This document shows, in pieces, positions 4,364 to 47,347 of a stretch of DNA of 64,000 nt (within the stretch, counting starts at the first letter, position 1; every line of letters starts with the position of its first letter). The DNA lies in contig CP127384.1 in NCBI GenBank assembly GCA_030285985.1, positions 124,001-188,000 of the forward strand, written 5' to 3'. Both the position numbers and the translations under genes were made by a program. This DNA comes from Aquidulcibacter paucihalophilus (GTDB lineage: Bacteria > Pseudomonadota > Alphaproteobacteria > Caulobacterales > Caulobacteraceae). The notes beneath the pieces are model-generated. The model made no database searches and was not told the DNA's origin. It worked only from the letters and a program-made list of their open reading frames with translations.

Positions 4364-4534
4364 GGTTCATCACGGCGGGCACAACGGAAGGCACAAGGGA
4401 CACGACGGGAGCGGTGACGGTTCCTCGTTCGCGGATTCATTCTGGGTCATGAGATCGCGGCTTCGCCGCATCGATTGAAAGGCCCCGGACCCCGTTGTGC
4501 CCGTTGTGACCCCGTCGTGCCCGTTGTGATGAAC
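4364..4534. repeat. Family A inverted repeat, gene-less copy 1
   Basis: Arms of about 45 bp, each a degenerate tandem of CACAACGRR units, face each other. The left arm (4364-4410) begins GGTTCATCACGGCGGGCACA. The right arm (4491-4534) reads CCCGTTGTGCCCGTTGTGAC and ends GTGATGAAC. The loop of about 80 bp codes for nothing evident. It occupies most of the katG-oxyR gap. The same arms recur at 32689-32851 and 45545-46022. Confidence 0.85.
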
Positions 4535-4582
4535 TCGACGCCACCAATCTCATAAGGCGGTCTGATTGTCTTTGGCCAAACG

Positions 4583-32522: not shown

Positions 32523-33076
32523 GGCGATCTCCTGCGGAGGTCTGCGTCGCTCGTGGCGGCGACGAGGCGGGAGATACGGCCGGGCTGTTTCAGGCCCGTG
32601 TGGCTTCCGCGGCGAAATCGCGACGGCGGATGAATTCGCGGAAAGCTGAACGGTGATCATCGTTTGGCGGCGCATCAAACAGACCCGGGGTTCATCACAA
32701 CGAACACAACGACTCCACAACGGACACGACGGCAGCATGGGTGCGGCGCGAACGCGCCATTCCTCCCTGGATGAGAAGGCGCTGCGCGCGACGGCGGAGC
32801 GCCGGCCCCGTCGTGTTCCCTGTGCTCTCGTTGTGTTCGTTGTGATGAACCAGCCGGCCGCTGCCGCCCCGCGCCTTGTCTTCGCCCCCCTTTTCCGCCA
32901 TAAGCCGCCGCTTCCGACGCAAGTGAACCTCGCGTCTCCACCATCACGACCCCGGTTCCGGCCGGACGAGGATGGCGAGAACCCTCCGCCGACGTGATCG
33001 TCGCCGGAGGCCATTTCGCTATGGAGACCGTTTCACCCGCCGGAAGCAGGTGGCCTTCGGGCTGACGAGGTAGTGA
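32523..33076. other. Non-coding stretch before ffh
   Basis: No credible gene was found in these 554 bases. The UrcA ribosome site is at the left edge and the family A inverted repeat occupies 32689-32851. The right third carries no recognised promoter motif apart from the ffh ribosome site (GAGG at about 33067). Short open frames here are translations of the repeat arms. Confidence 0.6.
32689..32851. repeat. Family A inverted repeat, gene-less copy 2
   Basis: The left arm (32689-32732) starts GGTTCATCACAACGAACACA. The right arm (32808-32851) includes CTCGTTGTGTTCGTTGTGAT and ends GATGAACC. The outer 20 bases of the arms are a perfect inverted match. The loop is about 75 bp without coding look. 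It is located between urcA and ffh. Confidence 0.88.
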
Positions 33077-44955: not shown

Positions 44956-45513
44956 ATGATGAACGCGAACCCCAACTTCCCGGACTGGCACGGCACCACC
45001 ATTCTGGCGGTGCGCAAGAACGGTCGAACCGTCATCGCCGGCGACGGCCAGGTCTCCATGGGGCCGACCATCGTCAAGGGTGCCGCGCGCAAGGTGCGGG
45101 TGCTGGCGGGCGGCAAGGTGCTGGCAGGCTTCGCCGGCGCCACGGCCGACGCCTTCACCTTGATCGAACGGCTCGAAGCCAAGCTGGAGCAGTATCCCGA
45201 CCAGCTGGCCCGCGCCTGCGTCGACCTCGCCAAGGACTGGCGCACTGACCGCTATCTGCGCCGGCTGGAAGCCATGCTTCTGGTCGCGGACAAGAGCTCG
45301 ATCTTCACCGTCACGGGCGTCGGCGACGTGCTGGAGCCGGAACACGGTGTGGCCGCGGTCGGCTCCGGCGGCAATTTCGCCCTGTCCGCCGCCCGCGCCC
45401 TGATCGAACACACCGACATGGACGCCGAAACCATCGCCCGCCGGGCCATGGAGATCGCGGCGGAAATCTGCGTCTACACCAACGGCAACCTGACGGTTGA
45501 GACGCTGGGGTGA
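44956..45513 (+). CDS. hslV: ATP-dependent protease proteolytic subunit HslV
   Basis: A 185-aa proteasome-like peptidase of the HslUV (ClpQY) complex. After a 13-residue propeptide the N-terminal nucleophile is Thr14 in [31 protein letters not shown] and [14 protein letters not shown] are family blocks. hslU lies downstream but is separated by a GxxExxY gene inside an inverted repeat, unusual because hslV and hslU normally abut. Confidence 0.97.
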
Positions 45514-45544: not shown

Positions 45545-46022
45545 GGTTCATCACAGCGGGCACAACGGATGCACAACGAACACGACGGGACCGAAGCGGT
45601 TTCGGCCCACGTGAACCATGCAGGAAGAGCGGTGATGGACGCCGCGTTCGCGGTGCATCGGGCACTGGGCCCCGGGCTGCTTGAGTCGGTCTATGAGGCA
45701 TGCCTCTCCGAAGAGCTGAGACAGGCCGGCCTGACTGTAGAGCGAGAGGTGGGCATCCCGGTCGCCTACGGCGAAGCGCGACTGGATGTGGGCTATCGCC
45801 TTGATCTGCTTGTTAACAGGTGCGTCGTCGTCGAGGTTAAATCGATCGACGCCCTGGCGTCGATCCATGCTGCCCAGCTGTTGACCTATCTCCGCTTCTC
45901 AGGTCTCCGTCTCGGCTATCTGATCAACTTCAACACGGTTCGGCTCAAGGACGGCTTTCGCCGATTCGTGCTCTGATTCCGTTGTGTTCATTGTGATCTC
46001 GCTGTGTTCGTTGTGATGAACC
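45545..46022. mobile_element. Family A inverted repeat enclosing the GxxExxY gene
   Basis: The left arm (45545-45590) begins GGTTCATCACAGCGGGCACA. The right arm (45977-46022) includes CGCTGTGTTCGTTGTGATGA and ends in GAACCC. The arms match those of the gene-less copies at 4364-4534 and 32689-32851. The enclosed gene starts inside the left arm and stops immediately before the right arm. No clear target-site duplication is seen. Mobility is inferred from the dispersed copies and from the position between hslV and hslU. Confidence 0.6.
45569..45976 (+). CDS. GxxExxY family protein, PD-(D/E)XK-like
   Basis: A 135-aa protein. The name motif is Gly36-Leu-Leu-Glu39-Ser-Val-Tyr42 in ALGPGLLESVYE. 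A nuclease-like core follows: Asp79 in YRLDLLVN and Glu89/Lys91 in VVVEVKSID, the D...ExK arrangement of PD-(D/E)XK enzymes. A conserved C-terminal QLLTYLRFSGLRLGYLINF comes next. The first residues HNEHDG are encoded by the repeat arm itself, so the ATG at 45569 depends on the element. The biochemical function of the family is not established. Confidence 0.85.
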   Translation: MHNEHDGTEAVSAHVNHAGRAVMDAAFAVHRALGPGLLESVYEACLSEELRQAGLTVEREVGIPVAYGEARLDVGYRLDLLVNRCVVVEVKSIDALASIHAAQLLTYLRFSGLRLGYLINFNTVRLKDGFRRFVL

Positions 46023-46045: not shown

Positions 46046-47347
46046 ATGACCGAACTCTCTCCCCGCGAAATTGTCTCCGAGCTGGATCGTTTCATCGTCG
46101 GCCAGGACGACGCCAAGCGCGCCGTGGCTGTGGCCTTGAGGAACCGCTGGCGGCGCAAGCGCGTGCCGGATGACCTGCGCGACGAGGTCACGCCCAAGAA
46201 CATCCTGATGATCGGGCCCACCGGCGTGGGCAAGACCGAGATCGCCCGCCGGCTGGCCAGGCTGGCCGGCTCGCCCTTCCTCAAGGTCGAGGCGACCAAA
46301 TTCACCGAGGTCGGCTATGTCGGCCGCGACGTGGACTCCATCATGCGCGACCTCGTCGAGGCGGCGCTGGTCATGGTGCGCGACAAGCGACGCACCGGGG
46401 TCAAGGCCAGGGCCGAGGCGGCGGCCGAGGAGCGGATCCTCGACGCCCTGGTCGGCCCGGGGTCGCAGCCCGCCACCCGCGAAAGCTTCCGCAAGAAGCT
46501 TCGGGCCGGGGAGATGGATGACAAGGAGATCGAGCTCCAGCTGGCCGAGACGGCCTCGCCCGTGCAGGGGCTGGACATCCCCGGCGGCGGCAATGTCGGC
46601 ATGATCAATCTGTCGGAAATGCTGGGCAAGCTGGGCGGGCAGCGCACGAAGACCGCCAAGCTGCTGGTCCGGGACGCCGTGGCCCCGCTGGTCAACGAGG
46701 AGAGCGACAAACTGCTGGATCAGGAAAGCCTGACCACCGAGGCGCTGCTGCTGGCCGAGAACGAGGGCATCGTCTTCATCGACGAGATCGACAAGGTCGC
46801 GGGCCGCTCCGACCGCTCCGGCGGCGACGTCAGCCGCGAGGGCGTGCAGCGCGACCTGCTGCCGCTGATCGAGGGCACCACCGTCTCGACCAAATACGGA
46901 CCGGTGAAGTCGGACCATGTGCTGTTCATCGCCTCGGGCGCCTTCCACGTCGCCAAGCCGTCGGACCTGCTGCCCGAACTGCAGGGCCGGCTGCCGATCC
47001 GGGTCGAGCTGAAGGCCCTGACGCGGGACGACTTCGTGCGCATCCTGACCGAGCCGGAAGCCAATCTGATCCGCCAGAACCAGGCCCTGCTGGCCACCGA
47101 GAACGTGACCCTGACCTTCACCCCCGATGCGGTCGAGGCCCTGGCCGATGCCGCCGTGGCGGCCAATGGCGCGGTCGAGAACATCGGGGCGCGGCGGCTG
47201 GTGACGGTGATCGAGCGGGTGCTGGAGGAAACCAGCTTCAAGGCGTCCGATCTGTCCGGCCAGACCGTCGCCTTCGACGGCGACCGGGTGCGGGATCTGG
47301 TCGCGGAATTGGCGCGCGACGCCGACCTGAGCCGCTTCATCCTCTAG
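46046..47347 (+). CDS. hslU: ATP-dependent protease ATPase subunit HslU
   Basis: A 433-aa AAA+ unfoldase partner of HslV. It opens [20 protein letters not shown]. Walker A is [15 protein letters not shown], the pore motif region GYVGRDVDS, and Walker B FIDEIDK. The C-terminal tail DLSRFIL inserts into HslV. ATG at 46046 with no clear Shine-Dalgarno; an in-frame ATG at 46016 lies in the right arm of the repeat, so the element also shapes its leader. Confidence 0.97.

Follow-up and report, generated by a model that had tools for sequence, protein, structure and literature searches.

The window analysed here is a stretch of 64,000 nucleotides (positions 124001-188000) of the 3.10-Mb single-contig genome of Aquidulcibacter paucihalophilus, in which the interval between hslV and hslU holds a gene for a GxxExxY protein enclosed by two inverted arms. 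Our data reveal that gene and arms form one unit, that within the genus the presence of the gene tracks the number of hairpins in a genome, and that the lineage of the gene tracks their type. Genomes that carry the gene are usually rich in empty hairpins of the matching type, which points to an undescribed partnership between a nuclease and a hairpin. On balance we lean, if narrowly, towards a hairpin cassette, whose RecB/Cas4-like nuclease would act in trans on hairpins of its own type, spreading or homogenising them. The features of the window are as follows.

45545 to 45590, plus strand: left arm, the GGTTCATCAC opening followed by four CACnnnG units (AGCG, AACG, AACG, GACG)
45569 to 45976, plus strand: GxxExxY protein gene, 135 codons and a stop, characterised by TIGR04256, PF13366, an AlphaFold2 model, fold matches and the ratio of nonsynonymous to synonymous substitution rates (dN/dS)
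45980 to 46022, minus strand: right arm, which repeats the left arm in inverted orientation, with minus-strand units, outer end first, of AACG, AGCG, AATG, AACG
4364 to 4535, no strand: gene-less hairpin E1, its arms the same as those of the gene element
32689 to 32851, no strand: gene-less hairpin E2, its arms the same as those of the gene element
44956 to 45513, plus strand: hslV, upstream host gene, co-directional
46046 to 47347, plus strand: hslU, downstream host gene, co-directional, with a likely ATG at 46046 (the listed open reading frame, ORF, starts at GTG 46004)

Names of host genes such as hslV and hslU are those that we presume from their sequences. The original prediction of a gene packaged in an inverted repeat is borne out by an inverted match of 53 nt (45545-45597 and 45970-46022) with 74% complementarity. 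Both arms open with GGTTCATCAC, and unit starts in the left arm lie 9-11 nt apart. The ATG belongs to the left arm, where it falls in the spacer directly before the third unit, so that codons 1-7 (MHNEHDG) are arm sequence, as had been claimed; it occupies the same codon in 30 of the 35 genus copies examined (L017 was skipped). The stop had been said to abut the other arm, and nearly does so, but the TGA (45974-45976) ends 3 nt ahead of the first right-arm repeat CGTTGTG (45980).

The two gene-less elements of the window with the same arms are likewise real. With up to 3 mismatches allowed, the probe GGTTCATCACAACGAACAC matches the window five times, twice each in the gene element and in 32689-32851 (once per arm) and once in 4364-4535 (right arm); 100 shuffles gave no match. 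The gene itself is present in a single copy in its own genome, in which the 13-nt arm end has 11 exact copies, with seven gene-less hairpins, including E1 and E2, readable around them. The interiors of E1 and E2 have no significant similarity to the GxxExxY gene.

The window protein scores 139 bits against TIGR04256 (cut-off 35; residues 20-134) and matches PF13366 (PDDEXK_3) above its cut-off of 22, which is its sole Pfam match; 7955 of the 7995 candidate relatives scored pass an E value of 0.001. The proposed core residues D79, E89 and K91 are invariant among 35 aligned proteins, in which Q103 is also invariant and Y107 nearly so, forming a QxxxY-like motif as known from Cas4 and RecB-family nucleases. 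The AlphaFold2 model (predicted local distance difference test, pLDDT, 92) has a restriction-endonuclease-like fold near Cas4 and Hjc; a search by sequence found no relative with a solved structure. By its D..ExK core and modelled fold the protein is a predicted PD-(D/E)XK (RecB/Cas4-like) nuclease, presumably capable of cleavage, and such a RecB/Cas4/Hjc-like enzyme would be suited to hairpins, cruciforms or ends as substrate. With a dN/dS of 0.05-0.18, the gene is under purifying selection.

Association of hairpin number and arm type with the gene

A GxxExxY match was found in 24 of 120 relatives, all of one genus and 22 of them above the cut-off. For each locus, the best local inverted match between the upstream and downstream flank was compared with the same windows shifted along the locus (hereafter the arm test), and 38 of 41 distinct genus genes lie above the 99th percentile of these shifted controls. 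The remaining three are broken copies, two with an internal stop (L031, L033) and one truncated (L034). The 41 entries are distinct genes, from which repeats of the same gene were omitted (L004, L039, L043, L051, L069-L071, L073, L075-L078, L081, L100, L104); L028 and L255, with an N-terminal part apparently out of frame, were taken from the start of similarity.

A two-unit arm pattern is matched in 68 of 111 genomes, and read backwards it yields a single match over all of them together. Among the 73 genus genomes screened for both gene and arms (genomes G120 and above were left out), the median number of arms is 16.5 in the 24 with the gene (14.5 after subtraction of two per gene) and 0 in the 49 without it; at least four gene-less arms occur in 20 of the former and 6 of the latter. 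The gene-bearing genomes include four with broken copies only (G004, G026, G063, G071) as well as G046. The argD tree offers eight independent pairs that differ in the gene, of which on average 5.5 speak for and 0.2 against the link between gene and hairpin number (median p 0.06); this supports the link, short of proof.

As to arm type, units were read as ACG type (CACnnCG) or AAG type (CACnnAG), only those ending in CG or AG being read, so that three units of the right arm in the window, those with a CG end, were taken in; the per-genome counts in the 111 genomes require the first two units to be both of one type. Left and right arm agree within an element (rho 0.96, n=33, from 33 of 36 elements), elements being nearly pure, and the gene tree requires three changes of arm type. 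All 16 genomes with an AAG-lineage gene contain gene-less AAG arms, compared with 2 of 12 with an ACG-lineage gene (p 5e-6). From this comparison G062, which has both lineages, had been excluded beforehand, genomes with broken genes only were unused, and five with fewer than two gene-less arms (G040, G056, G129, G140, G157) were dropped. On the argD tree, in which G017, G020 and G152 are absent and therefore omitted, gene lineage and arm type agree in 23 of 25 genomes, and six independent pairs divide 4.8 to 0 (median p 0.06). With the gene's own arms included, the ACG-gene genomes G000 and G029 hold no AAG arms and 15 and 25 ACG arms, whereas the AAG-gene genomes G142 and G070 hold 33 and 20 AAG and 21 and 4 ACG arms; G020, with an ACG gene, has 4 AAG arms alongside 21 ACG.

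Since the lineage of the gene goes with the type of distant arms, a trans-acting protein is the simplest account. The cassette consists of two inverted arms of four CACnnnG units around the gene of the small predicted nuclease. The nuclease would recognise those DNA hairpins or cruciforms whose arms are of its own type, both in the cassette and at distant gene-less copies, and nick or resolve them; repair that takes the opposite arm or a different hairpin as its template would then spread copies and keep the arms of a genome alike.

Several observations weigh against this account. Mismatched flank pairs within the genus pass the arm test in 72% of cases, because the arms have a common consensus. 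Six of the 49 genomes without a detected gene nevertheless have at least four arms (e.g. 17 in G057 and 11 in G031), G013 with an AAG gene holds 38 ACG and 9 AAG arms, and G010 with an ACG gene holds 6 ACG and 3 AAG arms. The independent contrasts are few, and their sign tests miss 0.05 for hairpin number as well as for arm type (median p 0.06). The gene-less interiors in the own genome are mostly unrelated (one 22-nt match), which does not speak for transposition of whole units. All 39 genus copies placed at operon sites run in the direction of the operon, which is not predicted for a purely DNA-level element, and template switching alone can yield the matching of left and right arms.

The last point leads to the possibility that the hairpins are passive: arms would arise and stay alike by template switching or slippage alone, a useful or selfish gene would reside in them by chance, and the correlations would reflect shared ancestry. 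Template switching at quasipalindromes is described as homogenising inverted-repeat arms in the accessible text of PMC8604942 and PMC7202029, and the shortfall of the contrasts and the few site changes of the gene (see below) agree with such a history. So does the position of E1, at one site common to 11 genomes: of 30 loci examined, 11, the own included, have the hairpin between homologous flanks, 16 have both flanks and no hairpin, and 3 are without a flank. At this shared site the E1 arms are mainly ACG in seven loci and AAG in four, which implies that they were rewritten in concert there. Template switching leaves the link between gene lineage and arm type unexplained; the contrasts available follow the gene in number (5.5 to 0.2) and type (4.8 to 0), near relatives differ according to their gene (G000 and G029 versus G142 and G070), and the arrangement of a gene within a hairpin recurs across many phyla. 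We therefore consider passive hairpins quite unlikely.

E2 is present in 2 of 30 loci, the own included (G000, G142), both flanks being found in 11. Six loci with close flanks are without it, and what is missing from them exceeds the element in length; three more have other sequence there, and 19 lack a flank. In G013 (L469) the E2 site carries a 647-nt insert, by its look presumably a HicAB toxin-antitoxin pair.

Operon sites of the gene

Two sites account for 39 of the 41 distinct genus genes, with 20 found downstream of hslV and 19 of argD; hslU or argF was seen as the downstream neighbour in 29 copies, and in 10 only the upstream neighbour was seen. Of the hslV group, three copies are about 1 kb downstream. 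Flipping of the gene at its sites was considered and rejected, all 39 placed copies being co-directional with their neighbour once the loci were turned to one orientation. Site labels change only twice on the gene tree, compared with 11.9 times in shuffles, which indicates mostly vertical descent. Three genes of the hslV group, namely the window gene, its sister L020 and L026, nest among 17 argD-argF copies in a clade of 20 (support 98/93) and carry ACG arms. Gene and arms have therefore moved, or replaced a resident copy, together, and a gene lineage and its arm type occur jointly at a second operon site.

The comparison of occupied and empty sites that had been suggested does reveal sites without the element and relics of it: some hslV-hslU spacers are short, G046 retains a stub of the left arm, G057 and G157 retain remnants of the right arm, and the gene copy of G063 has an internal deletion. 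Sites that lack the element bear such relics or show differences beyond its mere absence. No target duplication was noticed by eye at the sites, no systematic search having been made. Neither of the two outcomes named as refuting the original prediction was observed. An autonomous partner with passenger copies is partly supported: hairpin number goes with gene presence and hairpin type with gene lineage, as such a model predicts, but E1, at the same site in 11 genomes, does not speak for frequent jumping. The picture departs from the prediction in that arm sequence varies from lineage to lineage and the gene keeps to two operon sites within the genus.

Alternatively, the nuclease might be a domesticated enzyme that resolves hairpins or junctions for the cell, and the hairpins would serve it as sites of regulation or repair. 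Low dN/dS, long residence at two sites and a fold near Cas4 and Hjc would suit such a host function, whereas the patchy distribution (24 of 120 relatives; 65 of 398 phylum genomes) and the occurrence of broken copies and site relics make it very improbable.

Gene-less hairpins with TGGTGGC- or TGGCGAG-type repeats occupy hslV-hslU spacers that have no GxxExxY element in G138 (L160), G035 (L181) and G151 (L170); it looks as if this site attracted hairpins.

Arms in other phyla and the RNA level

The association with arms anticipated for GxxExxY genes elsewhere is found well beyond the genus. In the phylum, 31 of 48 scorable loci pass the arm test; this sample of 50 comprises 30 loci returned, 19 picked to widen the families and L032, a locus of the genus genome G046 with other arms that fails the test, and two loci were unscorable. 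Among the matches listed from many phyla, with at least 80 named loci found and one unscorable, 62 of 79 pass, including records from Acidobacteria, Verrucomicrobia, Planctomycetes, Chloroflexi, Bacteroidetes, cyanobacteria (Nostoc, Dolichospermum), Zetaproteobacteria and Methanosarcinales. Arms outside the genus are different short repeats (CACAGAG, CGCAAAG and CACGAAG types), and only about 10% of mismatched upstream and downstream pairs pass in the phylum and named sets, which argues that arms fit their own partner. Loci not above control number 3 in the genus, 17 in the phylum set, 17 in the named set and 10 in the four-helix set described below.

Some of these loci depart from one arm per side. 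In L321 and L332 the gene is bordered, on one side or on both, by gene-less hairpins that are complete or nearly so, as it is in L319, which fails the arm test and has a complete gene-less hairpin downstream; in L272, L280 and L316 the gene is followed by a further left arm and then a right arm, like a tandem array of hairpins. Elements of one phylum family (L266-L295) repeatedly adjoin similar host genes, which from their protein starts we take to be look-alikes of trpD-trpC, sufC, ileS and pyrC.

The association is not confined to the GxxExxY family: TIGR02436 genes (S23-type four-helix bundle), unrelated to it, likewise lie inside hairpins of other tandem repeats (L396-L425). TIGR02436 is matched in 42 of 249 phylum genomes, and 17 of the 27 loci that were scored lie above control in the arm test (30 loci were returned; L414, L415 and L421 were dropped for uncertain offset). 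One such gene lies in the own genome (C1:2271019-2271342, L402) with TAGGCAG repeats, and further repeat types are GAGTGAG and GGCGAATG. Tentatively, and with some doubt, both might belong to one class of operon-resident hairpin elements in bacteria and archaea, in which a small protein is matched to a tandem-repeat hairpin, with a GxxExxY/CACnnnG branch and a four-helix (S23/Avd-like)/heptamer branch (e.g. TAGGCAG). The protein would read the repeat as an address and drive its copying and homogenisation, producing a selfish or regulatory network that has no transposase.

The strongest rival to the DNA-hairpin reading is a role at the RNA level, as an intervening element: arms would pair in the operon transcript, mask the start codon and offer double-stranded RNA to RNase III, so that the cassette would be tolerated in operons like rRNA intervening sequences, its protein acting on RNA or being a passenger. 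The direction of all 39 placed genus copies is as expected from this, and outside the genus co-oriented neighbours also run with the gene (27 versus 7 and 43 versus 8). The transcript of the window element is predicted to fold such that its arms pair and the stem takes in the AUG (z -6.07). Intervening sequences of 23S rRNA are, in the accessible part of PMC4990558, also stem-loops of about 430 nt with an ORF, cut by RNase III, and their ORF family has hairpin arms as well (the 17 of 27 loci above). However, the excess of G-U over A-C pairs expected in RNA stems is weak in GxxExxY elements (187 versus 154, p 0.08; by element 47 versus 35, p 0.22), and four-helix elements reverse it (G-U 7, A-C 22); in the genus set alone it is 90 versus 52, among related copies with partly coding arms. 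No Rfam family reaches its threshold, and an RNA role leaves unexplained the match between the lineage of the gene and the arm type of gene-less hairpins far from it. We hold it to be unlikely.

Known systems

The cassette most resembles repetitive extragenic palindromes (REP), or their hairpin-forming pairs (REPIN), with the RAYT (TnpA_REP) transposase, as these are generally described and as the accessible parts of their literature portray them: in both, the repeats that enclose a single gene recur at scattered hairpins that have none, the number and the repeat type of these hairpins go with the gene, and the enzyme is of nuclease type. Palindromes flank the gene above control in 38 of 41 genus genes, and gene-less palindromes follow the gene as an association, with few contrasts and six gene-free genomes excepted. 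The element protein, however, is of the PD-(D/E)XK type (Cas4/RecB/Hjc-like, with only PF13366 matched in Pfam) and not an HUH/Y1 transposase; the arms are four-unit tandem repeats whose pairing spans the entire gene, and the copies lie in operons and in operon direction. The element thus seems to work like REPIN/RAYT, yet it lacks the HUH transposase that defines this group and is not a member.

The 23S rRNA intervening sequences with an S23 ORF share with it, as far as the accessible part of PMC4990558 extends, a stem-loop of about 430 nt, one small ORF in a transcribed unit and conserved insertion sites. The genus copies differ in lying outside rRNA (39 of 41 beside hslV/hslU or argD/argF), in the tandem units of their arms and in their ORF family, GxxExxY. 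Miniature inverted-repeat transposable elements and insertion sequences also have terminal inverted repeats and gene-bearing and gene-less forms, but our element is without a transposase and has the first codons of its gene within the repeat. Likeness to Cas4, RecB-family nucleases and Hjc is suggested by the modelled fold, the D..ExK core and the QxxxY-like motif; unlike Cas4, which has four cysteines, the window protein has two, and the neighbours found in the genus are hslV/hslU or argD/argF and not CRISPR genes.

If the partnership holds, the GxxExxY family, so far unassigned, would gain a testable substrate, and the repeats beside its genes in many phyla would be accounted for. It would also provide a REPIN-like system with a different enzyme, in which the persistence and likeness of non-coding hairpins could be tested via the ACG and AAG partners. 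In the literature searched, outside of which lie subscription papers and preprints, there was no recognised description of a nuclease-hairpin pairing and no occurrence of the name PDDEXK_3, and the name GxxExxY and the accessions TIGR04256, TIGR02436, PF13366 and PF05635 are rare. In the portions available, GxxExxY appears as an annotation where a cas4 gene is expected (PMC8934634), and PF05635 is related to the Avd protein of diversity-generating retroelements (PMC10053308).
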